Positions 40,257 through 62,835 of a DNA stretch of 64,000 nt are shown here, piece by piece. The position numbers and the translations under genes are program-made. The notes under the pieces are model-generated. The model did no database searches, was not told where the DNA came from, and saw only the letters and a list, made by a program, of their open reading frames with translations. Location: positions 105,963,367-106,027,366 of the forward strand of contig OZ038381.1 of NCBI GenBank assembly GCA_964036045.1, read 5' to 3'. The number at the start of each line of letters is the position of its first letter. Within the stretch, counting starts at the first letter, position 1. The stretch comes from Eutreptiella sp. 'Long Island Sound 2002' (lineage: Eukaryota; Euglenozoa; Euglenophyceae; Eutreptiales; Eutreptiaceae).

Positions 40257-40293
<37 letters not shown>

Positions 40294-40342: not shown

Positions 40343-40374
<32 letters not shown>

Positions 40375-41137: not shown

Positions 41138-41197
<60 letters not shown>

Positions 41198-44100
41198 GCT
41201 AAATCTCTTTGCATTGACAATCAGAGCACTGGGCAGAAGTCACCTCGCGGAACCAGCCAGCAGGTCCCATCGCAAAGCTGTGTTCCAATTAAACAGTCAG
41301 ATTCCCCTGCGTAGTACACAGTTCCGAGTAGACCACACGTGGGTGCCACGGATGGGGCCGACGTCTCAGGTCGGCCATCTCCCCGCCCACGGGAACTGAA
41401 GCCAGGCCGCACCTGAAGGCACAGCCTCTCTTCTTTGCACACCCAAAGCTGCGTGCCTCCACCCAAGAGCCGCGGCGGGGCGTGCTTGGCCGTTCCGAGG
41501 CACAAGGATCATGCCCGCTGGAGAAGCGGCCTTCGGCTGAGGTGGGGCCTGGACGCCCACGGCCAGAGGACGGCTGGGAAGCCAGCCCTGGCACAGGACA
41601 ACCAAGCCCCGGAGGGTTCCGTGCAATCCCGACAGACAGGCCTGACACCCTGGCCCTTGGAGCCACAGCATCTTCCGAAGGTACACAACCAGTTTGCCGA
41701 TTTCCCTTAGCAGCATTTGCACTGTTGACCAGCGGCGTCTAGCCGAAGAGACCAGCTGCGGTGATTCGGTACGGAGTCATTCCAATCGGATCAGAGCCCC
41801 CAGATGGGGGCTTGTCCCGGTTTGGTCACCAAGGGTTCACGCTTTGTTGCACAACTTCGCAGGGCGTTCCATGGAGTCGATGGCCACCAAAGGCATGGCG
41901 CATTCCGGGTCGGCCGAGGCCAAACCCTCAGAGCAGGGCACGCGTAAGTCCAATGGTAGCAATGCAGCACCATCTTGCCAAGCAGAGAGCTATGTCGCCA
42001 TGCAGCATGTCAGTGGATAGTCCACACACTCCAGCTGTCAGATGGAAAAGACAATTCAACAGGGGCGCCACCGAGACACGGCCCCGCAGCACCGGACTTG
42101 AGAACACCAGCGTTGCCACTGGCCCTTCCCAGCAATCTCTCCGAGAAAGCGTTCGGAGTATCATCAGCCAGAACCGTGGTACCAGCGTGTCGGAATATTA
42201 GATTCGTCTGCCTGTTCGCCACTCCTGCAAGGCAGAGCCCTGGCACCGAGCTTCACCCGAAGGGCACAGCGCCGCGCACCCCATGGCACCCAGTGGGGGA
42301 CCAGCACGGCGCCAGCCGCGGGACGGGCGACCCGGAGCCAGAGGCCCCGAACCTTGCAGCCTTTGCCGTATCCGTGAGCATTGCCATCTGGCTTACAATC
42401 GACTGACCCATATTCAACGGCTGTTGGTATGGAAGCCTGCTCCACTCCAGTCCTCAACCACTCAGGCCAGCAGCAGGCCTCTGCAAGAGAGAGCCTGCAT
42501 GAGCCACCAGAAAGAATACTCGCTACTGCAACCAAGATCTGCACCAAGGGATACTTCCCTCCGGGTCACCCCGGAGCCAGCACCGCGAACCCTTGCGTCT
42601 CGCCTACGCACTGCTGCACCAGCCCTGCTGCCACAGCAGCGGCGCGGTGTAAGTCAAACAACGCCTCTGGCTTGAGCATCATCCATTTTCGAAGCTGCCT
42701 GCTTCGGCAGGTGGGTTGTTACACACTCCTAGCGGATTTCAACCTTCATGGCCACCGCCCTGCTATCTCTAGCGGACAACATCCTTTGTGGATTCTATGT
42801 ATGAGCCAGCACTTGAACCCTGCAACCGCGCTCTCGGATCATCCCGCATCGCCAGCACTGCTTACCAGTAATGGCCCACATGGGGCTGCACACTGTTCCG
42901 GGTTGGGCCCCAGCGGCCTCAGCGGATGCCCGGGCAGAATGCCCCACCCCGCTGAGGCCGGAAGGCTGCCACCATCTCTCAAACACACTCAGGCACAGCG
43001 GACTGCTTTCGGCACGCCGTCGGCCAGGGATGGCCTTTGACGCGCCACACACAGACGCCGGATGCAGAGAAGTGTGCCTCCGATGCTTGCCCATTCACAG
43101 TTTGAGAATAGGTTGAGGACTGATAGACTCCCCAGAATGCCTCTCATGCATTGCTTTACCGGACAAAAGCCGCACCACGATCGACGAGTTCGGACACACT
43201 CCCAGCCCGAGCTATCCTGAGGGAAACTTGAGCGGAAACCAGCTACTAGATGGTTTGATTGGCCTTTCACCCCTATGCCCCGCTCAGACAACACGATTTG
43301 CACGTCAGGATTGCGACCGGCCTCCACCGCAGTTTCCCACGGCTTCGCCGTAGCCAGGTATAGTTCACCATCTTTCGGGTCCCATGGAGGACACCTCGCA
43401 CTCAGAACCAGTGTCCATTGGATTCAGGCTCGGCAGCTCTTGCATCAGATCGGTTTGCCATTGCACGCCATGGAGAAACATGCGGCACGCAGCACCGTAG
43501 ATCCCGCATGGATCCAAGAGGCAGCACCGCGGCGCAGAGTCCCCAGAGGCATGGCCACACGCTCTTCAGAGTCCCCAAAGGCGCGGTGAAACACAGTAGC
43601 ACCGCGGAGAAAGTGGTCCGTTCGCTTTAACCAGGCACCGTTCAGGAGAATCAGCAGCTGCGGCCACTGCTGCATGCCACGCCTGGGTCGGGTCGCGGAG
43701 GCCAAACCCCGCCAAGGCGGCGGCACAGCGGGCCCGGCCACCAGTTGCTCCGTACCAGCTTTGACTACACGCACAGCGTTGCCTGCGGCCTCCGATAGAC
43801 TCCTTGGTCCGTGTTTCAAGACGGGCAGGGGATGTCCCTGCCTTGCCAAGCCACTCTTGACACCTTTGCACGACTGTGCACCAACCGGGGTACCGAGAGC
43901 CGGGATGAGAGACCTGGAGGGCCTGCACACCACTAGCTCTCCCACTGATTGCACCCGGCGCGGTTGGTAGGCACATGCATCCGGTGCACCACACAGGGGC
44001 ACACCGGACACCAACAGGGCCATTCTGCCTTGCCACATTTGCCATCTCGAAGGATGATGCTCCGTGACATGGGTTACAGCTCCGGGCGGGACAGCAGAGC

Positions 44101-44328
44101 ACCAAAAAGCAAAGCCAAGCCCGGAAGCCATCCAGAATCCCAGCCAATGAAGCCTCTTCTCCGTTGGGGCATAGGTCACAGCGACCAAATTCATGCCCCC
44201 AGGTCCAGACAGGCGGAGTGCCTCTGCCAGAATGCCACTGCCAATCGATCCCACCAGAGAGTGGGGCTCTGCAGCCAGCCGCAGGCCAGACGCGAGGTCG
44301 CTTGTCCAAAAGCCGGGAAGGGCCCCAC
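39850..44328 (-). rRNA. LSU rRNA: Large-subunit rRNA, 3' part (after the insertion)
   Basis: Catalytic rRNA of the ribosome. Conserved landmarks on the minus strand: CCCGTCTTGAAACACGGACC (about 43,800-43,830), CTGACGTGCAAATCG and ATCTAGTAGCTGGTTTCC (43,240-43,310), CCACAGGGATAACTGGC of the peptidyl-transferase domain (about 40,405-40,425), the GACCGTCGTGAGACAG block (about 40,260), and the sarcin-ricin loop AGTACGAGAGGAAC (about 40,108-40,124). CTGAAAGCATCTAAGT (about 40,020-40,035) places the 3' end a few hundred bases further left; 39,850 is an estimate. The right limit is the target-site copy CCAC at 44,325-44,328. Several normally invariant CpG sites are TpG or CpA here. Confidence 0.85.
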
Positions 44329-47313
44329 TGACGCGTTCCCGCGGGGGGCCGGCCACGGGACGCTGCGGTGGACACGCGCAAGTGAGCAGGCAGGCAAAGC
44401 ACTACGCTCACAGGGGCATCAATGCGCTCATGTCATGTGACAAAGCGTTTCAGGATCCTTGCCACTCTGCAACAAGGGAACGAAAGTATGTACAGCAACA
44501 CATCGGGATGTGTACACATGGGGTTAAGACTGGACTGGGGTAAAGGCATCACAGGACAATAGACACTCAGTCCTAACTCGTATCCCAATCCCAGGTCCGA
44601 CCCTCTCAGTGGCTGGTGGGGGCGGGGGCTCAAACACAACCCATGCCCTGCTCAGTCCGGACCCTGAAATCCTGTCAATGGGAGAGGTGTCCCGCCCAGC
44701 CACAGGCGAGTTCCTGGGAACCAAGGGGCGCCAATGCGGACCCACAGTGGCTCCTTATGCTCCCTTAGTGGCAGGTCCCAAGTCCCCTCTGTGCGAGAGG
44801 AATGGCCCCGCCATTATCCCCTAGGAGTTGGTAGCTGAAAATGGGCTTTTTCAGCCCAAACTGGAATTAGCTCAAAAATCTGCAAAATTGATCTCTCGTT
44901 CGGACCCGCCAGAGGTAGGAACGAGGCAACTGACCCTATGCCCTTCCAGTACGAACTCCCTGGAGCCCTCACCCAACCTGGTTCCCTCTGAGGTCTCGGC
45001 ATCAGGGCAACACGGATGAGTCAAGTGGGGTCATGATGCCAAAATCACCAAAATTGGCCTCATTCCCACGCGTGGCTCGCCCCGCCAGGGCAAGGCCAAT
45101 GGCTCACAGGTTAGGAGGCAGGACCTAGGACTTTTATCTGAGTGTACAACTTGGATTTCAGTCCGAGCTCCCTGTGAGCATAGAGGAATGGGGCCGCCAA
45201 TTGACAACACGGAAGGGGGAAATTGGGGTCCTAAAATGGGGTCATTTTGGCTGCTTGAAATGAGCCAAAATTCGGTGTGCTCCCAATAGTCTATCTTCAC
45301 GCCGGCTTGGAGATCAGATCCGCCATTCCATACGCGATCCACCTGGAGTTCAACAGAGACTCGCATGCCTTTGGCGCTCGAAGATCTCCATGCCACTCGG
45401 CGTGGTGACGATCCCAATTGGGTCCACAAATGCCAAAATGGCAAAATTGCCCACACTCACTTTGGGCTAGCGCCTTAACGAGGGTTGCTCCGCTTCGCCC
45501 ACGTGGTGTATGAACCATGGGGACCAACATACAGAACACCCATGCCATATATGGTTCATTGGTCCATGCGTCTGGCGTGCACGGGTGGGCTCAACATAGT
45601 GCACGGCGGGCAGAAAGAGTGGAAAATTGTTCAAAATGGCCAAAAATGCGCACACTCATGGTTGGGGCAAATGAGGTACATGCCAGACTTGGACCGGAGT
45701 GTGCCATAGGATTGGTATGTGTCGTATGTGTCCAACATATCTTTTGGGTGTCGCCCAACTCCTCCGGTTTTGGGAATGGCAGGGTCGCCAAGTGAGCCCA
45801 TGATTTGGGATGGTCCCAAATCGCCAACATGGCGGCCACGGTATGCCAAGTCCACGAGGAGTTATTCGCTGGGTCCAAGATATGTTGGGCACCGAAGTAT
45901 GTACCCTCATAACAGACTCAGGTCATGATGTCAATTGAGCGCAACGTTGAGATACACGGTCGCCACTTGACATCATGACGGGCGAAAAACGGCAAAATTG
46001 GGACAAAGACACATAAAAGTGCATTGAAAGGTGCACAATTATATTGTAATATCTTCGGCTTGGATCGTGCAATCAACCAATCCTTCTAAACACAATGAGC
46101 TGACACCAATGACCTTCGATTCCACATATGTGCTCCACTTGGGGCGCTATGAAAGGTTACGAGCGCTACTTCCCAAGTGGGCACATGAAATTATGGAAAA
46201 TTGCAAAACACACACCTTGCTCCAAACGCATCGCTTCGGGATCGCCACACAAGCTTCTCTTCACGAAGGTTAGGCTTGCAATTGATCGTAGGGAGTATGG
46301 AGAAGGGGCTTGCACAATATGAGGTCCATTGGCGGGTTTGGCTTGGAGCGATAGACCCGCCAAATGGGCACGCAACACAACACAAGGCACATACTCCATA
46401 TTGCCCAAAAAGGTAGCTCCCCCCACGATATGTCATGCCCCTCCAAGGGCATAACTTTGTGTCAATCGCCCATAGGAACTCAAGGAGAGTTCCTATGCAA
46501 CACCAACACTCGCGCGCTACACTCGAAAGTTATCTTAACGCACGCAATATCATGGCCATAGAGTTACAAGGCAAACTCTACCCTCTTGACCATGATCCAT
46601 TACACTAGCGCGCACGTGTGGAGACGCAAGGCATATGATGCTTCCTAAACTACGTCGGGAGTATTGTGAATACATCCCACGATTCCTTATTGTCATTCCT
46701 CGCAGGCAACACGAGATATGACCTTCACAAGTGGCCTCACGAATCAACTTTGTTTTGCCCATATCTTTAAGACAAATGGAGGGCAGGATGAAAGGAAAGT
46801 TGATTCGTGCATAGGGAAGCACGTAGGTCTGCTCGAAAGAGGTCAAATCAAGTGCGGGGATGTCGAAGTCGAAAATCCGATTTCGACATCCTGAAAAATT
46901 CGGATTAAGGTTGCGAGTGTAGAATGTGAAAATTGCGGAAGCATCCATGCAGTTCCTGAAGACTTTGGAGCCTTCCTCACGGATAGCGTTAAAATTTCCA
47001 TTATAAACAGTTAAACTGGCGGTTACGGTAAAGTCGCGATCCAACCGCCAGCAGTCAAAACAGTGAGTATCAGAACGGAAGCGTAAAAATTGACGGAAAC
47101 AATATGAAAATAAAACCCTGTTGGTTCCTGATATTCTAATACACAAATCTCCGCTGGCGGTGCATCGGTTGCCGATGCGGGGCTTTACGGCACGGAACAC
47201 GCTCCCGCTGGGCTCGCACCGGGCGTCAATGGGCGCCTTCCGTACATGGGGTTAGTGGACCGGAGACCGGTTGTATGCCCTGCCCTAGCCATGGGGTTTT
47301 GGGTACCGCTTCA
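44329..47313 (-). repeat. Element R 3' LTR (2,985 bp)
   Basis: Begins (minus strand) TGAAGCGGTACCC at 47,313 and ends GGGAACGCGTCA at 44,329. It pairs over its full length with 58,516-61,505. Divergence from the partner is uneven: about 10% between 44,640 and 44,830, but only about 1% between 46,740 and 47,200. Contains hairpins such as TGTCGAAATCGG/CCGATTTCGACA-like arms at about 46,861-46,888 and ATAGGAACTC/GAGTTCCTAT at about 46,471-46,496. Confidence 0.92.
46550..47200 (-). CDS. Open frame inside the LTR (U3), 3' copy
   Basis: A 216-codon open frame, also open at the same place in the other LTR. It contains no ATG in the first 80 codons; the frame runs on from a TAA about 85 bp upstream. 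No family recognised: the sequence is Phe/Arg/Cys rich (LFSYCFRQFLRF, NPNFSGCRNRIFDFDIPAL). Over its first two-thirds the two copies differ by four silent and one replacement change, but replacements dominate in the last third. Could be a spliced element protein or chance. Confidence 0.3.
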   Translation of the reverse strand: MFRAVKPRIGNRCTASGDLCIRISGTNRVLFSYCFRQFLRFRSDTHCFDCWRLDRDFTVTASLTVYNGNFNAIREEGSKVFRNCMDASAIFTFYTRNLNPNFSGCRNRIFDFDIPALDLTSFEQTYVLPYARINFPFILPSICLKDMGKTKLIREATCEGHISCCLRGMTIRNRGMYSQYSRRSLGSIICLASPHVRASVMDHGQEGRVCLVTLWP

Positions 47314-47324
47314 CCCCCCCCCTT
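47314..47324 (-). other. Polypurine tract of element R
   Basis: On the minus strand AAGGGGGGGGG directly precedes the TG of the 3' LTR. This is the expected plus-strand DNA primer position in an LTR retrotransposon and fixes the LTR boundary. The corresponding site after the other LTR is host rDNA, so the tract belongs to the element interior. Confidence 0.85.
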
Positions 47325-48806
47325 AGAGCAAACCGTGGGGGGGGCTCGATAACACCCACGCATGGCAGCGGGTACCCAGGACCATATCCTGAAGGGGGGG
47401 TGTCACATCGTCACTTCAGGCTGACTCGCAGGTTGGGCTCCAAACTCCACAGTAGGATAGGTAGATGCTGTAAAAGCTCGTAGCACATGTATAGTATCAA
47501 GTATCAAGTCCCGGGTCCTGGCGGCGATTGTTCGGCATCCAAAGGACCCATAACCCATACCAGGCGCACCGGGTGCCGGCTGCTACGGTCACCACCACAG
47601 TGGCAGTGGCATACACGGCCAACATAGGCGACACACGACGACCGAGGTGGTCCCACAGGTCGAGAGCGACCACAAAGATCCATCAGGCTACCCCAAGCTT
47701 CCCAAGGCCCCCCGACTGGGGAGAGTCCCCACGGGTCCTTCCTCGGGCGCACCATGTCCATATCCATACGACGCGAGTCCAGAGTGATACAGCCGAACTC
47801 CTTAAGAGATCTTAAGGGAGCTCCTCCTTAAGGGATCGGGCATCAAGGCCGTCTTTTCCCTCGCCCTATTACCACGAAGGCCATACATGAGGGAGTCCTC
47901 ATGCAGTGTGGGCGGAGGCGTCGACTCCTCAAACCACCAGTTTCCCAGGCAGACTGACCGAGGTCAGGAGCACCGGAGGCCGCCATCCGACTGCAAGTGC
48001 GTCTGCGAATCGGTAGGCTCACACTGGGACTCACAGTGGCGGACCGCTGGGAGTGTAGTCAGGCAACTGGGCTTCCCGCTTGGCGCCATCAGGATCTCCA
48101 CACACAGCGAATAGGGCAACACGGTATTACGGGCACTCAAACAGAAGAATATGTAATCCGGTACTGGTCCAGGCTGGACCCTGTGTATAAACATGTACAC
48201 GGCGACTCAGGGCGCCTCTGTATTGCGATTCGAATCCCCTCGGGGGGGAGAAAACAGTCCATTTGTCGGTGATGGGCTGACAATCGTAACATACAAATGC
48301 ACATATCCTGGGGAGCAGAAAAGCAGAACAAGCGGGGTAAATAGGCGTGTAAACACACTCTGGACAGAGTGCCAAACCACGCCACGGTCAGGATAAGGCA
48401 AATGCAGGAGGGTGGACAGGAAAACGCCTGAGTTCAGGCCATATATAGTCTCGAGACACACGTCGACTGGTCTGGATTCCGCAAATGCCATGGAACCAGA
48501 CGACACACCAGAAATCGCAATGCCGATGACAGCGGCATCCGTTGCGCAACGTCGTATGGGCTTCAAGGCCCCAAGAGCTCAGAAATATGAAGGTCAGTCG
48601 CCCTACCTGGTTTCCCATGGATTCAGCAGGGGGGGAGTGACAAAGAGAAGAAGAGAGGGGCCATCCTCCTCTGGATTCAGCAGGGGGGGGTATATGGCCA
48701 CTCCGATGGCAGGTCACCGAAAGATGGAAGAGAGCAAGCAAGTAAGGGACGATCCGTCGACCTCACAAGCGCTGAAAACACATCAGGGGAGAGCTCAGGG
48801 CGCTGA
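47325..48806 (-). other. Element R 3' untranslated region
   Basis: About 1.5 kb between the chromodomain stop and the polypurine tract without a convincing ORF on the element strand. A 17-bp repeat TGGATTCAGCAGGGGGG occurs at about 48,619 and 48,673. Unusually long for this position, but no second gene is recognisable. Confidence 0.6.
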
Positions 48807-49754
48807 TCAGGCACCCCTGGCTGCAATCGCCCGGGTGAGTGCTGCCAAGTCCGAGACGTGGATCTTGGTCTTGTGCTTGCGGATGTACTCCATGAAGGGA
48901 GTATTGACCCGCGGCACGAACGAGGAGACGGGTTCCAGGGTGTCGTGGGACGGCCCATAGCCTCGCCAACGAACCTTGAACTCCAGACTTCCGGGTGCCG
49001 AGGCTTTCGGACGCTGAGCAAGGATCTTCTCGACTGTATAGTCGTCCTGCTCCGCATAATCGTCGTCCGAGTCAGCCTCATGTGCGGCATAGCTCAGGGA
49101 CACATGTTGGCCACGGAGGTCGGGTTCCCGCACACGGAGCTGACTCTCGTGGCGCTCCCGGAACTGTCTGTGACCCACCTTGATGCGGTAGGTGTCCTCA
49201 CCAATCCTGCGGACCACCTCGCCGGGTGTGAACCAGGTCTTGGTGCGGTGGGTGCCCATAGGGCGGGGTCTGATCACCCACACCGGGTCTCCCACCCTGA
49301 ACTTCTGCGCTGTCGAACTCGGGGCGGACTTCTGACGCCCAGCATGCTCCTTCTCGAGCTGCTGGCGGATGTCCCGCGCCGTTTGCTCTTGCCGCGCGAA
49401 GAATTCCTTGGCATCCATAGCCATGCCATCACCAGACAAGGGAAGTCCCCTACCCAGGGGGTCCCTGCCGAACAGAATCTGGTGAGGGGACAAACCGCCC
49501 GGAGTGGGGGTGTCATGATGGGCCCTCAGAGCAGGCCACATCTCCTCAAACCAGTTCCGACGTGGATTGGTGATGTGAATCTTGCGCAGCTTCTCGAACA
49601 GCTGCCGTCCAGCCACTTCAGCACGGCCGTTAGACCGGCTGAGATAGGCGACGCTCTCGGCATGACGTATTCCCATGAGGGAACACATAGCCTTGAACCA
49701 GCCACCAGGAAACCCCGGGCCCTCGGTCACTGCAAATGGTGCGGGGGATGTCAA
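48807..49754 (-). pseudogene. Element R integrase C-terminus and chromodomain
   Basis: Continuation of integrase after a frameshift near 49,745. The catalytic Glu is in SRSNGRAEVA; bridging the frameshift, it lies 35 residues after the second Asp, as in classic D,D(35)E enzymes. Then HQILFGRDPLG, a GDPVWVIRPRP barrel segment, and a canonical chromodomain (DDYTVEKILAQRP, LEFKVRWRGYG, DTLEPVSSF). A C-terminal tail of about 45 residues follows. The block itself is intact. Chromodomain presence places the element in the chromovirus branch of Ty3/gypsy. Confidence 0.9.
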
Positions 49755-50530
49755 AGACGGTCAGCCAGTGACGAATCATCATGACTGCCACTTCCTTGGC
49801 AAGCAACCCCTTTTTGCGTGCCGGAACGGCTACAACGTAGCCGCTGTGGCGGTCCACACAGAGAACCACACAGTCAAAGGTCTCCTTGCCAATGTGCACT
49901 TCGGGCATGGAGAAGACGTCCATGGCTACGCTCTCCATGGGCTGGTCAGGAACTGGGGTCCATTGGGCTTCCCCCTTGACGTTCCGGTTATCGGGACTGC
50001 AGGCCTGACAGACCGAGCAACCCTTCCTGACCATCTTGATGGCGGTGTAGAGAACGATATGGTCGACCTCGAACCGACACTGCATGTCAAGAGCTTGCTT
50101 CTTGACCCCTGGGTGCAGCATGTGGTGGTGCCAAGCTTCACACAGCTCGAGCACCCGGGACTCTGGTACTAGCAGCTTACCATTCCGGTAGAGCTTGCCA
50201 TCTTCCTCAGTCAGCCCCTTTGGCCAATTCTGCCCGTCATCAGGGTCGGTCACAGCCCTATACTCGGCCGCAAAGGCCTCAGACTTGGCGTAGTCGTCGG
50301 TCCAGTCGTCCTGGAGGCAAGACTCCGGAAAGAGGTGCTTGTTGGACTCAGCTCCATCAGGGGCGAGTACTCTGACCGCTCTGCTCACCCTCGACGCGAG
50401 GGGGGCATCTGCAGCCATGACGACGAAGCATTTAGCACCCTGCTCCTCCATCAGGCGCTCCATTTCGATGATCCTCTTGGCTTCAGCGGTCTCAGCCTCA
50501 TCGCCATGGGCAGAGATATCCGTCATGCCC
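49745..50530 (-). pseudogene. Element R integrase N-terminal and core
   Basis: Integrase zinc-binding region HHHMLHPGVKK followed about 31 residues later by CSVCQAC, then the catalytic core with the first Asp in VAMDVFSM and the second in TICSDRGPG. The frame is shifted against RNase H (near 50,530) and against the C-terminal part (near 49,745). Upstream of the zinc finger an acidic linker (DEAETAEAKRIIEMERLM) joins it to RNase H. Confidence 0.88.
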
Positions 50531-51030
50531 CTTGCTGGCGGGATAGGCCCACCTACTGAGACAGTCCGCCACGGTGTTATCCTTTCCAGGAATATACACA
50601 ACCGTGACGTCGAACTTGGCCAAGGTCTCATGCCATCTTGCCCGTCGGGAGGCGGGACCTGAGGTGGTGTCCACGTGCTCCTTGTGCCACGACTGCAGAC
50701 TCTGATGGTCAGTGCAGACGGTGATGGGATGGAGGGCTATGTACCCAGCCCATTTCCTGAGAGCCATGACGATGGCATACGCCTCCTTTTCACGGGGCGT
50801 CCACGTCAGTCTCTGGCCCTCCGCCAGGACTCGGCTCCAGAAGGCCACGGGCACGTGCCTCCCGTCGTCAAGCACTTGCTCCAACACAGCGCCAATGGCG
50901 TAGTCAGAAGCGTCGGTGCGCAGGACGAACCCTCGGTCGGGATCCACGAGTTGCAGACCCACTGCGGATAGCAGCGCCTGCTTCATCCCCTCAAAGGCAC
51001 GGTCGGACTCAGCTGTCCAGACCAGAGCCT
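50531..51030 (-). pseudogene. Element R RNase H domain
   Basis: RNase H degrades the RNA template during reverse transcription. Seen: LRTDASDYAIGAVLEQ with the catalytic Asp, EKEAYAIVMALRKW with the Glu, VCTDHQSLQSW with another Asp, and NTVADCLSRWA at the end. All expected acidic residues are present. A frameshift near 51,030 separates it from RT and another near 50,530 from integrase. Confidence 0.88.
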
Positions 51031-52509
51031 TCTTTGACCCTTCTTGGTCTCCTCTCGGTTGCCCTTGAGCATGGTCGTCATGGGGGCTGCATACTCGGCA
51101 TACATTTTGATATACCCCGAGTAGTAGTTGCAGAACCCCAGATACGGCCGTAGCTCAGAGACCGTCTTGGGCTTTTCCCAGTGCTCAATCGCAACCACCT
51201 TGCCAGGTATGGGCTTTCGCTGCCCGTTCCCGACCACGTGGCCAGCGAAGACCACCTCGCTTACCGCAATGGTGGCCTTGTCACTGCTGCCCGTGAGTTT
51301 GTGCCGAACCAGAAGGTCCAGCACTCGAGTGACGTCCCTCTCGTGTGCCTCCAGGAGCTCCTCGCAGCTCATACTGGGGTCCCCGGACGCGATGATCACA
51401 TCGTCCACGAAGGGGTCCGCACAGTCGCGCACCGGCTCAAGCAGGTTCTCCAGCATCCGCTGAAAAGCCGCATTGCCGTTGGTAACGCCCATGGGCATCA
51501 CCTTCCACTGGAGAGGTCCAAGTGGGGTGCTAATGGCTGTGCAGGCACGGGACTCCTCGGCGAGAGGCATCTGATTTTAACCATGTTTCAGGTCAATCAC
51601 CGTGAAGATCCTCCGCCGATGTTGCTTTCGCAGCATGTCCTCAATGAGGGGCAGCGTATAGCTGTCGTGCTGCGTTTGGGCATTCAGGCCGCGGTAGTCG
51701 ACCACGAGCCGCCATTCACCGGCCACCTTCTTGGGGACGACGAAGCACGGAGAGGCCCATTCGGAGTGGCACGGCTCGAGCCAGCCTCTCTGGATGAAGT
51801 CACGGAGGATCCTCTCCATGGCCTCTTTCCTCTCGCCCCTCAGGGCAAACTCCCGGTGCCGATACACACGGGGGTCCTGCTTCAGTCGTATCTTGGCCTC
51901 GCCATACGGTCCACGCACCGGTGGGGGAAACACAGGCTTTCCGCTGAAGAAGGTATCACCATACTTCTGCTTCAGCCTGGCCCTCAATGCCTGAATCTTG
52001 GGGCAATCGTCGGACTCCGCCTTGGCTTTTCCGGGCACTTGAACCACGGAGCTTACTTGAGGGGTAGCTACTCCGCTCGCTTTCGGCTCAGGTGGTCTTC
52101 CCAGGTGGCCCAAAGGGCCATCTCTGGTCTTGCCTCGGAACAGATTGCCGTAGGTGGGTGGGTTACCCCCGATTGGCTCGTCCTGGCTGGATAGGTGGTC
52201 CAGCACCCTCTGCACGAAGGTGTTCCCGTCATAGGAACCAGAGACGATCGAGTCCACTTCCCACCAGGCTTTGTCCTGGCCTTTGCCCTCACGCTGGTTT
52301 CCCCAGTCGTGAAAGGGCTGATCCATATACCCCTGAACCAGATCCCACTCCTCTTCAGTGAGGGGGTCTTCCGAATCCGATTCTTCGATGTCAACAGGGG
52401 GAACCGCAAAGCATTGCCGCCATGGCTCCGCTATGATGCGGTTGACACACACGAAGTCCGTGGCGTCGGCCTGATCAAGGCCCCCATCCACATAGTGGAA
52501 TTCTGTTGG
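51031..52509 (-). pseudogene. Element R reverse transcriptase
   Basis: RT fingers and palm are recognisable: RLKQDPRVYRHREFALRGE pre-finger, SPCFVVPKKVAGEWRLVVDYRGLN, IFTVIDLKHG with the first catalytic Asp, PMGVTNGNAAFQRML, and FVDDVIIASGD, the YxDD-type site with Phe first. An in-frame TAA (51,577) lies just after DLKHG, exactly in the catalytic palm, and cannot be tolerated. The about 150 residues before the RT are acidic and of unknown role. Confidence 0.9.
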
Positions 52510-53790
52510 CTATCTCTGGGGTGGCATGGGCTGTCCCTTAGCGTCCTGATAGACACTCTCTCCAGCCGGTAGGACGACGTTGTTTAAGGTCATGTTGGTC
52601 AATGAGGCTACCCAATGTCGGGTACTTTCCTCCTCGGTGCATCCCATAGGAACAACCAGCACTGCCTTGGAGCGGTCCTTGCGAATCTTCGCTATCGCTC
52701 TTGGAATGTCCCAACGGGGGCAATGGATCCACATCAATCCCTGATGCGGACCCCAGTGCTTCTTCCACGCGGAGTCCTGTGCGCTCCAGTACTTCTCACA
52801 AACCCGCAGATGGGCGGAGGTTCCTGAAGAGAACGCATCCAGGGCCAGATCCGAAGCTCCCAAGTCCGCGACAACTCGGCTCGCCACTTCCGGCCTTACG
52901 CCGTACTCCTGGTTTGCAGGACCAGTTGGCTCAGTGTCCAGCGCGGCCACTTCGAGCTGATTGCGTTCGGGGTGGATCCATTGGCATTCCACATGGTGCT
53001 CAGGTGACGAAAGCCACGGGAGTTGGTCGTCCTGGTACAGGGTCATGGAGGCCTGGGCCGGGAGGACGCCGGAGTCCGTCTCCATCATGAAGTCGTACCC
53101 AACGATCATGTCCCAGTCCATCTCGGCCTCGTAGAAGCGACCGTGCAGGAGTATTTCCTTGCCGAGGTCTGGGCGGCTCAGCTCACGATGGTTCACGAAC
53201 TGCAGCCCGATGGCCGCTTTCTTCGTGCCTCCCACCATGTACTGGCCGTTCGCCACCCTCAGCCTGACAGGTTTCCGACTGTCGGTCAGACACTCTGGTG
53301 CAAGTAGGCCAGCCTTGACCAAGCTGACTTGAGCTCCCGTGTCGACCAATACGTCGAAAACCTTTTCCACTTCCCCGCATAAGGCACGGACCTTAAGATG
53401 CAACTGCCGCTCGCGGCCGACACGGCGCACAGCGTGCAAACTCAGGATCTCTGGCCGTTCCAGAAGCTCAACAAGCGACTGGTGCAGGTCGTGGACAATG
53501 GGCTCAGGCTGCCCATCTGCAGCATCCAGCTGCGGTCCGGGTGTTCCTCCGATACTCTCGGATAGATCCTGTAGTACATCAAACACATTCTTGGTCGCGA
53601 AGGACGGACGGGTGCAAGGGTTCGTGCCTTCACTTGCCCTCACCCCGCCTCCGCGACTGGGTGCCGGACCGGGCCTTCCGCCCGCGGCAATCCCTTTGTG
53701 CTTATCGACTGCCGACTGGGATGGTTCGGCGGTTCCCACGTCACCATCCTGCGACCGCCCTAGCTGGGGCCCTTGGCTGCAGGGGCTCTG
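52510..53790 (-). pseudogene. Element R aspartic protease and Dam-like domain
   Basis: Open from just after the TAG at 53,791 to a TAG at 52,510, in the same frame as the Gag end. The retropepsin site is FDVLVDTGAQVSLV (about residue 145), with the second motif DMIVGYDFM about 95 residues later. The last 110 residues match a pattern I know from DIRS and some gypsy elements as a Dam-like methyltransferase-derived domain: LALDAFSSGTSAHLRV, KYWSAQDSAW, LMWIHCPRW, IAKIRKDRSKAVLVVP. The catalytic N/DPPY/F/W tetrad reads HCPRW, so it should be inactive even before pseudogenisation. The next frame (RT) follows in phase. Confidence 0.8.
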
Positions 53791-54790
53791 CTAGGGGGCG
53801 TCGGTTGTGGAAGAAGGGGTGTTCTCCTCCGCATCAACCTCGTTGACGCCCTTCTTCCTTCCACCTTTCTTACCCTTCTTGTCCTTGTCCTTGTTCTGGT
53901 CCTTCTGGTCGTTCTCCTTGTTCTTGTTGTCCGACCTGGGGACCCAGTTCCTCTTGATCTCCTGGATCTCCTTGGCCAACTCGGTCCCCTGCGACACCAG
54001 CTTGGAGAGCTCGTCCCTGTCCACCTCCACCTTGGCTTCCCGGATACCCGCGGGCGCACGCTTCTTCGACCCGTGCGCCTTCTTGTAAGCCTCCGTGTCC
54101 TTGTGGACGGGGCATGTCCGGTGGTCATGGTTGAAGCCTCGCTTCCTCCCATAACACACGAAACAGCCCTGAGGGTGAGCTCGTATGAACTCCCCAAAGG
54201 ACAGCGGAGGGTCGCCAATGCGGCGAGGGTCCCTCTTCTCCTGCTTCCTCCAACCCTGCTGCAGGGGCTTCCAGTTTCCCGGTTTGCTCCCCGCGCTCAG
54301 GTTCTTGGCCACGAAGGCACACACGGCCACTTCGGCGGGCTCATCGTTGTCGTCATCGTCGACGAGAGTCTCATCGCCGCCGGCTCCCGCTGGGTCCATG
54401 GCAGCTTCCCCGCCAGGTCCCTCGCCAACGTAGTTGACGTCGCGGTCGCCGGGCCTCAACCCGCGGGTGTGGTGGAGGTTCCGGTACTCCTTGAGCACTT
54501 CCTCTCCAACCCACTCCAGGATCTCGTCGCAGCTCATCCGCGCCGGGATGGCCTGCAGACGGATGGTCTGGCCGCTCAACTCACACTCGTCAAGGCGCCA
54601 CATCGCGGTCTTCTCGCGATCGCCCGAGACGGTGATGAGGAGAGCGTTCCGCAGGGAGTGCCGTTTGACATCCCGGGCCACGTTCTTCTTCGCCCAAGCC
54701 ACCACGTTCGTATGATACTCTTTGGGGAGCATCATCTTGACCGTGTGGTTGGACTTGGCCCTCTTGGATTCCTCCTTGGTGACCCTCTTG
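53791..54790 (-). pseudogene. Element R Gag C-terminal part with modified zinc knuckle
   Basis: A 314-codon frame reading KEYHTNVVAWAKKNVARD at its start, a helical DEILEWVGEEVLKEY region, an acidic DETLVDDDDNDEP stretch, and CFVCYGRKRGFNHDHRTC. The last is a CX2CX8HX4C knuckle, four residues longer than the retroviral CX2CX4HX4C. It ends in Lys-rich repeats (NKNKENDQKDQNKDKDKKGK) and TAG, followed by CAG. The frame is shifted against the upstream Gag near 54,795. Role: nucleic-acid packaging. Confidence 0.8.
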
Positions 54791-56618
54791 ATGCTTCCGG
54801 CAGCATGGAGGGCAGGCGAGCCTGCTCGTCACCCTCGTTCCAATCCTCCACGTTGCGGCGGTAGAGGGTGTATTTCCCTCGGAAGTCCCGCCGATCCCGC
54901 AGGCGGACCTCCCGTCCATCATGCTCAAGCTTGATGGACTGCCACCGCTTGGCAGCCCCCTGCGGAGCGTCCACCCGCTCCTGCTCGTTGAGCCACTTCT
55001 TGGCTTCCTTGAGGGTCTTGATCTTCCCCTCCTTGGTCGCCATGAAGTATAGCTCTCCGAGCACTTCCGGCAGGCGGTACCTGAACCGTCTGAAGACATA
55101 TCTCTCCGCATCCGCGTGAGGCATGTCTTCAGTAACGGTCAGCCCCCAATCGTCCAGCTTCTCCAAGAAGCGGTTGAGGTTGAGGGGGTTGCCATCGTAC
55201 ATGGGGGGCTTGATGTCCTTCAAATCTTCCAACACGGCGGCATCCGCGGCCTTAGAGACCATGAACGCCGGCCGCGAGGTCGACCGAGGTTCCCATCGGC
55301 CTCGCCCACGGACTCCCACGGCCGCCACGTCCATCTCCTCCATGGAATCCCTGTGGCTACGCCGTGGTTCCTCCATGTACGCTGAACCTAGATGTTCACG
55401 CCGTACTTCTTCCATGTACGCATCCTCATCACGGTGCCGGCGGCTGCGTTCAGCGGCCTCCCGTCGTACACCACGCGGCGGGCTGATGTCGAACTCTTCC
55501 AGGTCCAGATCCAGGTCCTCACCTTCACCGACATCCCACTCCACGTCTCCTCTGGGGACCTCATCCCTGAGTCCACCATAACGTCCACCAGCCATTGGGA
55601 TTGGCTCCAGGGCTGGTGCGGGGCGCCGGGGGCGTACCGGTGTCCGCGGGGGAGCACGGCGGTTGCAGTACTCCGCGCTGAGCCACTCATCACGCCAATC
55701 CTCACTGCCACTGCCGGGCGGCACGCGCTCGTTGCGGCGGCCCGCGCTGTGTTGAGAGGGGGCGGTGAGAGAGGCGGCACTGGCGCTGGGGCGACTCCTG
55801 GGGGCTCCGCCGGGGGCGTGGGGTCTGCCTGGACCTGGTCCGGGTCCCCAGCCGTCGTCCGACGAGCCAGACTCCAGGGGTGGGCGGTCGCTGCTGACGC
55901 TCCCACGGGCTTCCAGCGCGTCCAGCCTCTGCTGCAGGCCGCTGATGACCGTGTTCAGCTGTCTGATCTCGGCCCTGGCGATGTCCAGCTCTGTCTGCGC
56001 GCGCGCGGCGACCTTGGAGATGCGAGTCATCTCGCCCTTGCCCGTGTGTACCTCGCACTCGAGGGAAAAGACCCTCCTGCGGAGGTAGACAATCCACCGC
56101 CAGGTGGTATCCGGGTCGCCGTTCCCTGGTGGGTCGTCGGGGTCCCCAGGGGGTCCTCCAGGAGGGCCTCCGCCGGGTTCGCCCGGTCCAGGGGGTCCTA
56201 CCCTGCCCGGTGGTCCGCCTCCAGGGGGTCCACTTCGTGGGCGTCCTCCAGGGGGTCCTGATGGTCCTCCGCCAGGGGGTCCCGGTGGGCCTCCGCCGGG
56301 TCGCCTCGGTGGGTCCGAGGATGGGCGCTTCTTCGTGATGACGAAGTCCATGTCGTCATCCTCGTCCATGTCGCCCCACCTGGGCGTCTCGGTCTCGGAA
56401 GACTCCGAGCTCCGGTAAGGAGGAGGGAGATCCGCATCCTCACTTACCGGATCCATGGGGACGTCTCCGCCTCCTCCGGCCGTCCAAGCCACCACTTGGC
56501 GATGTCGGCGGCCTCGTTCATCCCCGTCACTGGCGGTGAAGAAGGGGTCACTGTCGTGGGGGTGTCCACCCGCTGGCCTCCGCGGCCTCTCGGGGGTCTT
56601 CCCCTTGCCCTTCCTCCG
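54791..56618 (-). pseudogene. Element R Gag main part (Pro/Gly-rich, coiled coil, capsid-like)
   Basis: 587-codon block; an ATG is at 56,456 but the frame is continuous with upstream blocks. Order: acidic stretch (DMDEDDDMDF), Pro/Gly-rich repeats of PPGGPPG type (encoded by 56,104-56,320), coiled coil (IARAEIRQLNTVISGLQQRL), Arg-rich linker with repeated YMEE, then a capsid-like region (IKPPMYDGNPLNLNRFLEKL, VFRRFRYRLPEVLGELY) typical of Ty3/gypsy Gag. A frameshift near 54,795 ends the block. Confidence 0.82.
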
Positions 56619-57479
56619 TCAATGGGCGGTGGGGCCACTGCTCCCACTGCTGCCCGTGTCCGCCTCATCCAGCGTCATCTTGGAGGAGGCGTCCCCTTCG
56701 AAAAGCTTTCCAGGGGTCTCCACTCGTGATCCTCCCGGGGGAGTCTCGCGGCGGAGTTTGGCCTCTGCCTCCTCCATTGCGGCGGCGGTGGCTGCGGCAG
56801 CCCGCACTTCGGCTTACTCCCGAGCACGAGCCGCCTCGGCTACCCGGGCCTGCTGCAGCCGCGCCTTCTGCGCTTCCAACGCCGCCAGCTCCGCCTCCGT
56901 CTTGGCCTTCTCCTCAGCGACCTTCCGTCGCGCGGCCTCGATGGCGTCCTTCTTGGCGGTGTCTGCCTGGGCCTTAGCCGTCGCTTCGGCGTGGGCCCTT
57001 TCCTCCGCCTTCTTCTTTGCCCTCCCTTGGGCAAGCGCCTCTTCCAGCGCCCTCATCTCGGCCTCCTTGCAGGCAATGGCCTCCTGCGTCAGGTGGGCTT
57101 CCTCGTCGGCTGCCGCCGACTCACCGTTGACCTGGGCAGTCGCTGCCCCATGGGCGGCTATGGCCGTGAGTCCGGCCGCAATGGCCGCCACGGTCTGGGC
57201 GTGGATGGCCATGCCATGCGCCCACTCCGCAGCCTCCTCCTGGGCGATGCCGACAGCGCCCTCCACAGCAGCGCTGTGCTGCCTGGCCCGTTGTCGGACA
57301 ACCCGAAGGTTGCAGGGCACCCCACAGGCGCGCTCACAGGCGCGCGCCACGTGCCTGTCGGGAGCAACGCTGCTGCTGGAGCTGGCCTGGTCGGCCGGCA
57401 TCCTCCCGCGGTGGGCCGACTCCACGTCGCTGCTGGGGCCTGCTGGGGCCTGCTGGGGCCTCAGGAGCAGCTGACGGGG
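56619..57479 (-). pseudogene. Element R Gag, Ala-rich coiled-coil block
   Basis: In phase with the blocks on both sides, separated by TAG (57,480) and TGA (56,619), with TAA (56,814) inside. Long Ala/Glu/Lys coiled coil (AKAQADTAKKDAIEAARR, AELAALEAQKARLQQ). The TGA corresponds to a likely ancestral CGA. It suggests that the original Gag was one frame of about 1,400 codons. Confidence 0.7.
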
Positions 57480-58100
57480 CTAGGCCTTGGTCTGCCTGGC
57501 GCCTTGGATGAAGTCGCTGAGGGTGGCGTGGCCGGGGTGATGACCACCATTGGCCCGTTGGGGACTGGGGGCTGGGGTTCCGCCCTTGGCGCCTTGGGCG
57601 GCTTCGGCGGCCAGGGACTCCTGGTACTCCCGCCACCTCCGGTCCCGCTTCCTGTCCCCGGCGGACTGCTTCTCCTTCCCCGGAGACGCGCTGCTGCTGC
57701 CCTGCAGCCTGCGCTCGCTCCCCGGTTCCGGGAAGTTCTTCTCGATCATGTCCCACATGGAGACATTGATCGAGGCGCCCGACGGGTACACGTTGGGCTC
57801 CTCGTCCTCCTCAATCCCGTCGGGGCGCAGGCCTTCGCCAGGCCTGTCCGGCCGGGTCCACGTCCTCCAGCGCCTCTGCTGGAAGCGGAAGGCGAACCCT
57901 TCCGCCCGCAGCCAGTCCTCCACGGCCTGCAGGCGGTCGGGGGCGATGTCGGTGCGGAGCTCGAAGCTCCCGGGCATGCCGCCTTCGCACTGGGGGTGGC
58001 TGTGGCGGTAGTGCTGGTCCCAAACCAACCCACGCAGTAGGCGCACTGCATGGGGGTGGGGCCGCGGCCACGTCCTGCCCGCTTCCTGCCAGTTTACCAT
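57480..58100 (-). pseudogene. Element R Gag N-terminal block
   Basis: First ATG after the leader (58,100) opens a 206-codon block: MVNWQEAGRTW, a globular SFELRTDIAPDRLQAVEDWL region, WRTWTRPDRP, VYPSGASINVSMWDMIEKN, and a basic tail. No domain recognised. It is in the same frame as the following blocks, so I treat it as the Gag N-terminus; it could instead be a separate accessory ORF. Confidence 0.65.
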
Positions 58101-58374
58101 GGCAGCGGGGGGCGTACTTGGTCTTGAGGTCCTTGGTGTGCACTCGCTCCACTCAACGAACTGGTGGTGGTTGTTGAAGCGGGTGCTGCAGCACTGGATT
58201 GGTAGTGCGGCTGGTGCTGGTCAGCCGGTGGTTGTGGAGGTGGTTGACGCGGCCTTGCTGGTCGGCCGATGGGTCTGGTCTGTGCACCTCTTTCACGGTC
58301 GCTGCGCGGTCAGGGCGATGCTATGGACGGCGCTGCTGGCTCCGTGACGAACTCGGCGCTGTCGCTGGGCGGCG

Positions 58375-58450
58375 CTGCGAGCCGCTGCGCTGCGCTGCGA
58401 GCTGCTGCGCTGCGCTGCGAGCTGCGAGCTGCGAGCTGCTGCGCCGCGCT
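58375..58450. repeat. GCTGCGAG simple repeat in element R leader
   Basis: Imperfect repeats of GCTGCG(AG/CT) over about 75 bp, immediately downstream (element strand) of the primer site. Strongly GC-rich; likely structured in RNA. Confidence 0.8.
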
Positions 58451-58504
58451 GCTCGGGGTTGGTGGCCCCGAGTGGCACGCGAGGGCTGGGTAACCCCGCG
58501 GCGG

Positions 58505-58515
58505 TGAAACGCTTT
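58505..58515 (-). other. Candidate self-primer binding site of element R
   Basis: On the minus strand the LTR ends ...CGCGTCA and is followed at once by AAAGCGTTTCA. This does not begin TGG, as a tRNA-primed site would. It is perfectly complementary (11 of 11) to TGAAACGCTTT at 58,639-58,629 inside the LTR, which recurs in the other LTR at 44,452-44,442. Tf1/sushi elements prime from an 11-nt 5' RNA end in this way. Confidence 0.7.
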
Positions 58516-58628
58516 TGACGCGTTCCCGTGGGGGGCCGGCCACGGGACGCTGCGGTGGACACGCGCAGGTGAGCAGGCAGGCAAAGCATTACGCTCACAG
58601 GGGCATCAGTGCGCTCATGTCATGTGAC

Positions 58629-58639
58629 AAAGCGTTTCA
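58629..58639 (-). promoter_or_regulatory. Candidate transcript start and self-primer of element R
   Basis: TGAAACGCTTT on the minus strand, 113 nt before the LTR end. In self-priming elements the first 11 nt of the RNA anneal to the site after the LTR; if so, R starts here, R+U5 is 124 nt and U3 about 2.87 kb. No clear TATA box is seen 25-35 nt upstream, so the start is inferred only from complementarity. Confidence 0.55.
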
Positions 58640-60741
58640 GGATCCTTGCCACTCTGCAACAAGGGAACGAAAGTATGTACAGCAACACATCAGGATATGT
58701 ACACATGGGGTTAAGACTGGACTGGGGTAAGGTCATCACAGGACAATAGACACTCAGTCCTAACTCGTATCCCAATCCCAGGTCCGACCCTCTCAGTGGC
58801 TGGTGGGGGCGGGGGCTCAAACACAACCCATGCCCTGCTCAGTCCGGACCCTGAAACCCTGCCAATGGGAGAGGTGTTCCGCCCAGCCACAGGCGAGTTC
58901 CTGAGAAAACCAAGGGGCGCCAATGCCAACCGACAGTGGCTCCTTATGCTCCCTTAACGGCTGGTCCCAACTCCCCTTCTGAGCCAGAGATATGGCCCCG
59001 CCATTATCCCCTAGGAGTTGGTAGCTGAAAATGGGCTGTTTCAGCCCAAACTGGAATTAGCTCAAAAATCTCCAAAATTGATCTCTCGTCTGGACCCGCC
59101 AGAGGTAGGGACGAGGCAACTTAACCAATGCCTTTCGAGTACGAACTCCTTGGAGCCCTCACCCAACCTGGTTCCCTCTGAGGTCCCGGCATCAGGGCAA
59201 CACGGATGAGTCAAGTGGGGTCATGATGCCAAAATCACCGAAATTGGCCTCATTTCCACGCGTGGCTCGCCCGGCCAGGGCAAGGCCAATGGCTCACAGG
59301 TTAGGAGGCAGGACCTAGGACTTTTCATCTGAGTGTACAACTTGAATCTAGGTCCGAGCTCCCTGTGGGCATAGAGGAATGGGGGCGACAATTGACCACA
59401 CGGAAGGGGGAAATTGGGGTCCCAAAATGGGGTCATTTTGGCTGCTTGAAATGAGCCAAAATTCGGTGTGCCCTCAATAGTGTATCTTCACGCCGGCTTG
59501 GAGATTGGATCAGCCATTCCATACGTGATCCACCAGGAGTCCAAAGTAGACTCCCATGCCCTTGGCTCCCAAAGGTCTCCATGCCACTTGGCGTGGTGAC
59601 GATCCCAATTGGGTCCACAAATGCCAAAATGGCAAAATTGCCCACACTCACTTTGGGCTAGCGCCTTCACGAAGGTTGCTCCGCTTCGCCCACGTGGTGT
59701 ATGAACCATGGGGACCAACATACATAACACCCATGCCATATATGGTTCATTGGTCCATGCGTCCGGCGTGCACGGGTGGGCTCAACATAGTGCACGGCGG
59801 GCAGAAAGAGTGGAAAATTGTTCAAAATGGCCAAAAATGCGCACACTCATGGTTAGGGCAAATGAGGTACATGCCCGACTTGGATTGGAGTGTGCCAGAG
59901 GATTGATATCAAGTCAGATGTGTCCAACATATCCTTTCGGCGTTGCCCAACTCCTCCGTTTTTGGGAATGGCAGGGTCGCCAAGTGAGCCCATGATTTGG
60001 GATGGTCCCAAATCGCCAACATGGCGGCCACGGTATGCCAAGTCCACGAGGAGTTATTCGCCGGGTCTAAGATATGTTGGGCCCCGAAGTATGTACCCTC
60101 ATAACACACTTGAGGCATGATGTCAATTGAGCGCAACGTTGAGATACACGGTCGCCACTTGACATCATGACGGGCCAAAAACGGCAAAATTGGCACAAAG
60201 ACACATAAAAGTGCATTGAAAGGTGCACAATTATATTGTAATATCTTTGGCTTGGATCGTGCAATCAACCAATCCTTCTAAACACAATGACTTGACACCA
60301 ATGATCTTCGATTCCACATATGTGCTCCACTTGGGGCGCTATGAAAGGTTACGAGCGCTACTTCCCAAGTGGGCACATGAAATTATGGAAAATTGCAAAA
60401 CACACACCTTGCTCCCAACGCATCGCTTCGGGATCGCCACACAAGCTTCCCTCCACGAGGGATAGGTTTGCAATTGATCGTAGAGAGTATGGAGAAGGGG
60501 CTTGCACAATATGAGGTCCATTGGCGGGTTTGGCTTGGAGCGATAGACCCGCCAAATGGGCACGCAACACAACACAAGGCACATACTCCATATTGCCCAA
60601 AAAGGTAGCTCCCCCCACGATATGTCATGCCCCTCCACGGGCATAACTTTGTGTCAATCGCTCATAGGAACTCAAGGAGAGTTCCTATGCAACACCAGCA
60701 CTCGCGCGCTACACTCGAAAGTTATCTTAACGCACGCAATA

Positions 60742-61392
60742 TCATGGCCATAGAGTTACAACGCAAACTCTACCCTCTTGACCATGATCCATTACACTAG
60801 CGCGCACGTGTGGAGACGCAAGGCATATGATGCTTCTCAAATTACGTCGGGAGTATTGTGAATACATCCCACGTTTTTTTATTGTCATTCCTCGCAAGCA
60901 ACACAAGATATGACCTTCACAAGTGGCCTCACGAATCAACTTTGTTTTGCCCATATCTTTAAGACAAATGGAGGGCAGGATAAAAGGAAAGTTGATTCGT
61001 GCATAGGGAAGCACGTAGGTCTGCTCGAAAGAGGTCAAATCAAGTGCGGGGATGTCGAAGTCGAAAATCCGATTTCGACATCCTGAGAAATTCGGATTAA
61101 GGTTGCGAGTGTAGAATGTGAAAATTGCGGAAGCATCCATGCAGTTCCTGAAGACTTTGGAGCCTTCCTCACGGATAGCGTTAAAATTTCCATTATAAAC
61201 AGTTAAACTGGCGGTTACGGTAAAGTCGCGATCCAACCGCCAGCAGTCAAAACAGTGAGTATCAGAACGGAAGCGTAAAAATTGACGGAAACAATATGAA
61301 AATAAAACCCTGTTGGTTCCTGATATTCTGATACACAAGTCTCTGCTGGCGGTGCATCGGTTGCCGATGCGGGGCTTTACGGCACGGAACAC
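60742..61392 (-). CDS. Open frame inside the LTR (U3), 5' copy
   Basis: Same 216-codon frame as in the other LTR, not interrupted. Replacement differences include Gly to Arg near residue 18, Ser to Leu in GHISCC/GHILCC, Arg-Asn to Lys-Lys, and Leu to Val near the end. No initiation codon in the first third, so coding potential is uncertain. Confidence 0.3.
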   Translation of the reverse strand: MFRAVKPRIGNRCTASRDLCIRISGTNRVLFSYCFRQFLRFRSDTHCFDCWRLDRDFTVTASLTVYNGNFNAIREEGSKVFRNCMDASAIFTFYTRNLNPNFSGCRNRIFDFDIPALDLTSFEQTYVLPYARINFPFILPSICLKDMGKTKLIREATCEGHILCCLRGMTIKKRGMYSQYSRRNLRSIICLASPHVRASVMDHGQEGRVCVVTLWP

Positions 61393-61505
61393 GCTCCCGC
61401 TGGGCTCGCATCGGGCGTCAATGGGCGCCTTCCGTACATGGGGTTAGTGGACCGGAGACCGGTTGTATGCCCTGCCCTAGCCATGGGGTTCTGGGTACCG
61501 CTTCA

Positions 61506-62084
61506 CCACGACCGCCAATGCCTGTGCGAGAGCCACGGATGGTCTCGCCAGCCACTTCACGGTCCGGGGCTGCATCGCAATCCTCTGTGTCAGGGAAGCA
61601 TCCACCACCGGTCGCCTGCCGCAGCTTCAGGCACTTTGAACCCTCTTTGCAGAGTCCTTTGCACGTTTCGATCAGTCTACTTGTTAGCTATCGGTCCCAT
61701 GTCTGTATGCAGCCTTGCCACGGACATGCCTGGCCGTTTGACCTACAGTCCCAAGCAGCTCTACTCCAGGGTCTGGCGTGTGTGCACACCATGGCTAAGA
61801 ACACCGACCAGTCCTCTTGACAGGAGGGCTGTAGCCCAGGTATCGCGGACCATCCCAGTCCACTCTGACTCTGGATCGGCGCCATAGTAGGTCTGTGCAG
61901 CCGTGACAGCCATCCCCATGCCAGCATTGCATCCCGGAGTGCACCCAGTGCTCACCGCATCAGGTGACCAACAACGATACGGGTAGACCGTGTCAATCTG
62001 GTTCATTCGCCATTACTGAAGCCATCACGATTGCTGTCTCTTCCTCTGCCAAGTGATATGCTTAAATTCAGCAGGTAGCTCTCT
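61506..62084 (-). rRNA. LSU rRNA: Large-subunit rRNA, 5' part (before the insertion)
   Basis: Starts at ACCTGCTGAATTTAAGCATATC (62,075-62,054), the universal LSU 5' signature, followed by CAGAGGAAGAG and AGTAATGGCGAATGAAC, which correspond to AGTAACGGCGAGTGAAC elsewhere. GACCGATAGCTAACAAGTA (about 61,685-61,705) confirms domain I. The insertion falls shortly afterwards in the variable D2 region. The first part is unusually diverged between about 61,720 and 62,000. Confidence 0.85.
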
Positions 62085-62745: not shown

Positions 62746-62835
62746 CATCTATCTCTGCTCCCTGGCGCGGGAGAGCCCTCAGCGCCGTCACCCACTGGTT
62801 GACCAGCAGGTGGCGTTGCACAAAGCTTCGACAAT
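62746..62835 (-). other. ITS1
   Basis: Very short spacer (about 90 bp) between the SSU 3' end and 5.8S; limits depend on the estimated 5.8S start. Confidence 0.6.

Follow-up and report, generated by a model that had tools for sequence, protein, structure and literature searches.

A Ty3/gypsy chromovirus within the D2/ES7 segment of a large-subunit rRNA gene of Eutreptiella: most probably one insertion of a dispersed family into a decayed rDNA cluster

Background

Chromoviruses are already known from the interior of ribosomal RNA (rRNA) genes, described cases being Beon1 and TRRT. Beon1 is reported as a Galadriel-clade chromovirus at position 736 of the 18S gene of Beta vulgaris; it is bordered by a 5-bp target site duplication (TSD), in fluorescence in situ hybridisation (FISH), it labelled the chromosome carrying the ribosomal DNA (rDNA) alone, and its authors suggest a single original integration (PMC3605345). 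TRRT occupies position 781 of the tomato 18S gene with a 4-bp TSD, and its authors favour recombination-driven duplication over fresh transposition (PMC2679016); a piece of a Ty3/gypsy element at the 28S end of a moth is described in a third report (PMC10257491). Here, we describe a chromovirus in the large-subunit (LSU) rRNA gene of the euglenophyte Eutreptiella sp. 'Long Island Sound 2002'. It is located at positions 44329..61505 (minus strand) of a stretch of 64,000 nucleotides (assembly GCA_964036045.1, contig OZ038381.1, positions 105,963,367 to 106,027,366), which is named the window in the following.

With Beon1, the element has in common that a Ty3/gypsy chromovirus lies within an rRNA gene and is flanked by a TSD; Beon1 differs in residing in the 18S rather than the LSU gene, in the 5-bp TSD and in its many copies within the rDNA, whereas the family studied here is dispersed. 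TRRT is likewise an element with gag, reverse transcriptase (RT), integrase and chromodomain in an rRNA gene, with a 4-bp TSD, but it has a reported length of 5.6-6.0 kb and seven copies at the same place, position 781 of the 18S gene, which were amplified together with the unit. The non-LTR elements R1 and R2 as well as Pokey live in LSU rRNA genes, too. In contrast to the site-specific R1 and R2, which use other machinery, the present element possesses long terminal repeats (LTRs) and an integrase and shows no sign of rDNA specificity. A first-pass annotation of the window, generated by a model from the letters and a list of open reading frames (ORFs), had regarded LSU insertion as a habit of non-LTR elements and some DNA transposons; this view is incomplete, as the chromoviruses Beon1 and TRRT have been reported in 18S genes. 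A search of the open-licence literature found no report of a chromovirus in the D2 segment of an LSU gene, which does not prove that none exists.

Results

The insertion is real and defined at base resolution. The element comprises 17,177 bp and is identified as a Ty3/gypsy chromovirus by its LTR pair, its TSD and Pfam domains in the Ty3 order. Read in the sense of the element, the 5' LTR (58516..61505, minus strand, 2,990 bp) starts with TGAAGCGG and finishes with ACGCGTCA; the 3' LTR (44329..47313, minus strand) has a length of 2,985 bp, BLAST having extended it by two bases to 47,315 due to a chance identity. Both LTRs have TG...CA termini and they are 95.8% identical (2,860 of 2,985 aligned bases). 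A copy of CCAC adjoins each of them: the upstream copy in the rRNA sense (61506..61509) abuts the right LTR, the downstream copy (44325..44328) the left one. The first-pass annotation had seen both the TG...CA ends and the duplicated CCAC, and both are confirmed. A polypurine tract, AAGGGGGGGGG (47314..47324, minus strand), adjoins the 3' LTR. TG...CA LTRs, primer binding site (PBS), polypurine tract and a TSD of fixed length, which characterise the structure of Ty3/gypsy elements, are thus all present. Element and rRNA genes have the same transcriptional direction, both being encoded on the minus strand.

Rfam detected LSU sequence on both flanks of the element (5' part including the start of D2/ES7, 61510..62078, with the gene start set by eye; remainder, 39983..44324), the 5.8S rRNA (62554..62732) and the 3' part of the small-subunit (SSU) rRNA (62832..64000, extending past the window edge), all on the minus strand. 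In the portions of the Rfam alignments shown, many departures from the family consensus are compensated at both pair partners, which indicates that these are true, though diverged, rRNA genes. The element entered about 570 bases downstream of the LSU start. The sequence CCCGTCTTGAAACACGGACCAAGGAGTC at 43,798-43,825, which we take to be the conserved LSU core following D2, marks the point where the core resumes; the insertion therefore lies within the D2/ES7 expansion segment, which is about 570 bases long in this organism. Rfam had placed the resumption after D2 at 43,398; with the resumption at 43,798-43,825, the unaligned LSU stretch is not a second insert. Folding of the joined flanks was dismissed as a proof of rRNA continuity, since in none of the four settings was the energy gain outside the span of the rotated controls. 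The sites of R1 and R2 are in the conserved LSU core, so that an element in the variable D2/ES7 segment has hit a different kind of target. Some protists cut their LSU rRNA into pieces; if this host does so, the insertion site could be an internal spacer.

The state before insertion is preserved elsewhere in the assembly (2.28 Gb in 2,205 contigs were searched). With the 765 bases leading up to the junction as a query, 471 first-look candidates were obtained, 40 of which were scored. Each of these 40 matches covers the query completely. Apart from the window itself, they represent 39 further places, several of which form rows with a spacing of about 9.0-9.6 kb. Ten of these 40 loci were fetched, i.e. 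the window's own copy (L077) and nine others (L078-L086). The predicted empty site aligned without gaps in all nine other loci at 98.4-98.7% identity, over 1,460 bases in eight cases and over 1,335 bases in L078, whereas the alignment of the window's own copy breaks at the junction. Insertion and 4-bp duplication are thereby established within the assembly, and the earlier proposal that the LSU sequence becomes continuous upon removal of the element and one CCAC is substantiated by nine genuine empty sites.

The family to which the element belongs is abundant and dispersed. A pattern representing the LTR end (35 bases, at most two mismatches) matched 6,830 times in the genome (3,451 + 3,379), the reversed control not at all; with two LTRs per complete element, this number corresponds to thousands of insertions. 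Two LTR searches were performed and the best 40 places were scored in each, with one extra piece in one search. Among these places, only the window copy runs past the LTR into LSU sequence; the matches at the others end at the LTR edge or within about 10 bases of it, except for one extra internal piece. A pattern for the LSU-LTR junction (21 bases, at most two mismatches, written for either orientation) gave 14 matches: the window is the one exact match, and the other 13, spread over 10 contigs, each contain two mismatches; the reversed control gave one. With zero or one mismatch, the window is thus the only place of the genome with an LSU-LTR junction at this site. The searches yielded 42 distinct flank entries, two of them being the window's own; two more were dropped (L030, which is internal, and one L026 entry, which is an LTR piece). 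None of the remaining 38 flank sequences, which represent 25 other insertion loci, matched the full rDNA unit with spacer. On a rough scale, the 471 candidates would make up about 0.2% of the genome if all were rDNA units of 9.5 kb; for thousands of insertions, a few hits in rDNA are then expected by chance. Copies assembled at one rDNA position, the mark of an rDNA-specific element, were not found in these searches.

The family has a recognizable habit at its target sites. After pairing of flanks by distance, both flanks could be read for 12 other elements, and an exact 4-bp duplication was found in eight of them (9/13 if the window is included). A pyrimidine-purine step occupies the centre of 15 out of 20 other target 4-mers, compared to a background of 24.6% (0.246; p = 3e-6), in a measure that was picked after the 4-mers had been seen, took 12 of the 20 from one flank alone and did not include L026, L030, the window or the four elements whose flanking 4-mers are unequal. 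CCAC conforms to this pattern. The flanks at nine of the 25 other loci resemble the first 39 kb of the window or the family's own gag region, which shows that nesting in repeats is common. One family copy (L012; G000:C4:26.95 Mb) is situated inside the apparent gag region of a copy of the same family, with 92% identity to window positions 54271-54570. Just past the rDNA spacer stub, the window contains a chromodomain-like ORF (38431-38964; 0.0045, under the cut-off); a flank of the family copy L031 is a 96% reversed match to this segment, hence the family has inserted into such sequence elsewhere.

The rDNA unit hosting the element has decayed. It was compared with two reference units, L087 (C4, 42.7-Mb row) and L094 (C12), which differ from each other at eight sites. 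After exclusion of 15 gap columns, 85 private substitutions remained in 6,833 compared sites: 12 in 1,169 for the SSU, 10 in 751 for the internal transcribed spacers (ITS) with the 5.8S gene, and 63 in 4,913 for the LSU. The rates are similar in genes and spacers, which suggests a lapse of selection. Of the 36 private changes from C to T or from G to A, 21 are located at CpG, compared to 864 of 4,008 C/G sites (p = 1.8e-6). This is the pattern expected of methylated, silent DNA; judged by these substitutions, the unit was probably methylated and silent. It belongs to a cluster of at least three units: L088 is next to it and another one (L089-L090) is about 60 kb off; the similarity is 96.8-97.6%. 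The divergence of about 2% per LTR is somewhat above the 1.2% of the host unit, and occasional conversion of the window unit by other units would explain this excess. The adjacent unit L088 (G000:C4:106027367-106037000) lacks about 648 bp near L088:6750, from ITS2 to a point no more than a few bases from the insertion position; no LTR match was found in L088. The SSU gene of the reference unit (L087:6335-8560) is diverged and long, its Rfam match comprising 2,226 bases; an SSU string had no match in the viral-contig and genome-contig collections, which may lack records from the genome of the window.

The coding region of the element has decayed as well. A gag-like ORF (53791..54828, minus strand, as are all following features; taken from the ORF list) contains by eye a C-x2-C...H...C stretch; its 53791-54735 part had no match in Pfam, and no gag family was detected. 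The order protease, RT, RNase H, integrase agrees with that of Ty3/gypsy elements, with weak matches for protease and integrase. The aspartic protease region (52510..53790) matched PF13975 weakly (E = 9.7e-4, under the curated cut-off). RT is split: its first part (51577..52509; RVT_1 positions 1-77, E = 5.8e-4, under the curated cut-off) ends at an in-frame stop; the second part (50983..51576; RVT_1, E = 2.7e-10) contains FVDD and, compared with solved structures, matched Ty3 Gag-Pol (7q5b, E = 1.3e-14). RNase H (50498..51154; PF17917, E = 1.9e-27) is in a frame other than that of RT. The zinc-binding part and the start of the core of integrase (49630..50736) gave a weak rve match (E = 0.014), with motifs assigned by eye, among them the zinc-binding and catalytic residues; the C-terminal part with the chromodomain (48807..49760) follows in a different frame. 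The chromodomain match (PF00385, E = 1.3e-6) is above the curated cut-off, and its location at the C-terminus of integrase marks the element as a chromovirus, the class to which it had been assigned at first pass. Due to the stop within RT and the two frame changes, between RT and RNase H and between the parts of integrase, this copy looks dead.

With 13 other LTR copies as the reference, a number of which stem from a single element, 54 of the differences between the LTRs are private to the 3' LTR, 52 to the 5' LTR, and 19 are others. For such an even split, simple decay in place is a sufficient explanation; a mosaic or gene-converted LTR, which the clustering of differences had suggested, was set aside for the same reason. 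The LTRs of one other pair (C9) are 98.4-100% identical per 250-column block, thus the family also has younger copies. RT relatives were not detected in the genome-contig and viral-contig collections, which may omit the records of this genome, and the LTR string had no match in the viral-contig collection.

A further feature concerns the priming of reverse transcription. Directly after the 5' LTR, the putative PBS AAAGCGTTTCA (58505..58515, minus strand) is the exact 11-nt complement of TGAAACGCTTT, a putative self-primer in the 5' LTR (58629..58639, minus strand; LTR positions 2,867-2,877), which may be the start of R. Such a complement in the LTR exists for only two of 11,189 internal 11-mers, one of them being the PBS. 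The match is kept at nine of ten other places (14 rows); in the exception, L002/L017, the PBS is altered and the LTR shows no matching change. The PBS of tRNA-primed elements usually begins with TGG, whereas the start of AAAGCGTTTCA is different. In Tf1, the first 11 bases of the RNA pair with the element's own PBS, as reported (PMC7175516), and priming of Tj1 is described as similar to Tf1 (PMC4600332). A survey of plant elements regards the Tcn1 clade as the sole group of plant chromoviruses in which self-priming is likely (PMC6317226). Based on complementarity, Tf1-type self-priming would start reverse transcription in the present family, which predicts the 5' end of the RNA within the LTR. 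The likeness to the Tf1/sushi and Tcn1 chromoviruses (Tf1, Tj1, Tcn1) consists in the pairing of the PBS with an 11-nt stretch of the own LTR; on the side of differences, the present element has a length of 17.2 kb, LTRs of 3 kb and a 4-bp TSD. Of the features described, the self-priming signature in a chromovirus of 17 kb is the one that merits further study.

Beyond the rDNA spacer stub, the first 39 kb of the window contain pieces of other retroelements. A tandem duplication of 4.9 kb (6219-11116 and 11168-16068, 97.6% identical) is rich in 37-bp repeats and harbours two ORFs of equal length (8175-9038 and 13128-13991), the former with a faint chromodomain match (0.084). A direct repeat of 2.06 kb (20483-22542 and 30525-32581, 91.5% identical, 10 kb apart) shows an integrase-core match in the first copy (7e-6) and, beside the second one, matches to RNase H (9.8e-9) and RT (0.0018); apparently, this is another Ty3-like element, partly duplicated. 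A 184-bp tandem repeat is located at the window edge (1-716).

Discussion

We interpret the locus as one ordinary insertion of an abundant, dispersed chromovirus into the D2/ES7 segment of an LSU gene belonging to a decayed, diverged rDNA cluster, and assign to this reading a probability of about 0.9. According to it, integrase would have inserted the element at C-CA-C with a 4-bp stagger, the kind of site favoured elsewhere. The host unit is part of a diverged cluster of at least three units, and both the unit and the inserted element have decayed, being beyond effective homogenisation and selection in this reading; what we see would be a chance insertion that then survived in a cluster of relic rDNA. 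The order of these events is inferred. Several points weigh against this interpretation. The gap of about 648 bp in L088 ends near the same position and is left as a coincidence. The junction pattern would miss cases in which the rDNA or the LTR end has diverged strongly, and the 13 two-mismatch matches are outside the statement on zero or one mismatch. The flank loci stem from the best 40 LTR matches per search and are therefore a non-random sample of best-scoring copies. In four of the 12 other elements, the duplication is imperfect, with one mismatched base in two cases, two in a third and three in a fourth. Finally, the junctions are known from the assembly alone.

A further reading is an assembly error that has fused an LTR element to rDNA, since high-copy LTRs pose difficulties for assembly, as rDNA does. 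Such an error would require two wrong joins at the same point, which would also have to create the family's own 4-bp duplication; moreover, there are private changes in both LTRs and in the unit, which makes such an error highly improbable. The least credible explanation is an rDNA-directed lineage, whose integrase or chromodomain would guide it to rRNA genes, the destination that R1 and R2 reach by other means. The insertion in an rRNA gene and Galadriel-clade chromoviruses reported from the rDNA of beet and banana speak for it. However, not one of the 38 flanks is rDNA, a single junction with zero or one mismatch stands against 6,830 LTR-end matches, the 40 scored rDNA matches cover the whole query up to a site that is empty in all nine other loci examined across it, and the target is a variable segment. 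For this LSU site, rDNA targeting is refuted. The first-pass annotation had offered chance and targeting as alternatives and had named copies at other sites as the observation that would tell against targeting; carried out on the sample of 25 loci, this test turned out in favour of chance, and so did the single junction with zero or one mismatch.

A bias towards silent chromatin is a possible, though doubtful, alternative. Here, the chromodomain would direct insertions to DNA that is methylated or heterochromatic, and the diverged rDNA cluster would have counted as such when struck. By eye, the aromatic residues are in place at what we presume to be the positions of the methyl-lysine cage; the repeat-like flanks at nine of 25 loci, the CpG-biased decay of the host unit and the retroelement pieces in the first 39 kb of the window point in the same direction. 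However, the genome may consist mostly of repeats, in which case nested insertions such as those with the nine repeat-like flanks are expected, and the CpG decay may postdate the insertion. A more elaborate scenario is rather unlikely: a very large chromovirus with many copies, self-priming and a 4-bp stagger would be led by its chromodomain into silenced chromatin, hitting silenced rDNA and older transposons together, and its insertion would help to fix the silent relic cluster.

Conclusion

The two LTRs of the element, compared with each other, and the host unit, compared with other units, are independent clocks, which could date the unit's escape from concerted evolution if a rate were given. 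The Tf1-type signature in this eukaryote with a large genome may widen the known range of self-priming. The genuine empty sites show that a dispersed LTR element can enter an LSU gene without being specific for rDNA; this case cautions against inferring targeting from a single junction.

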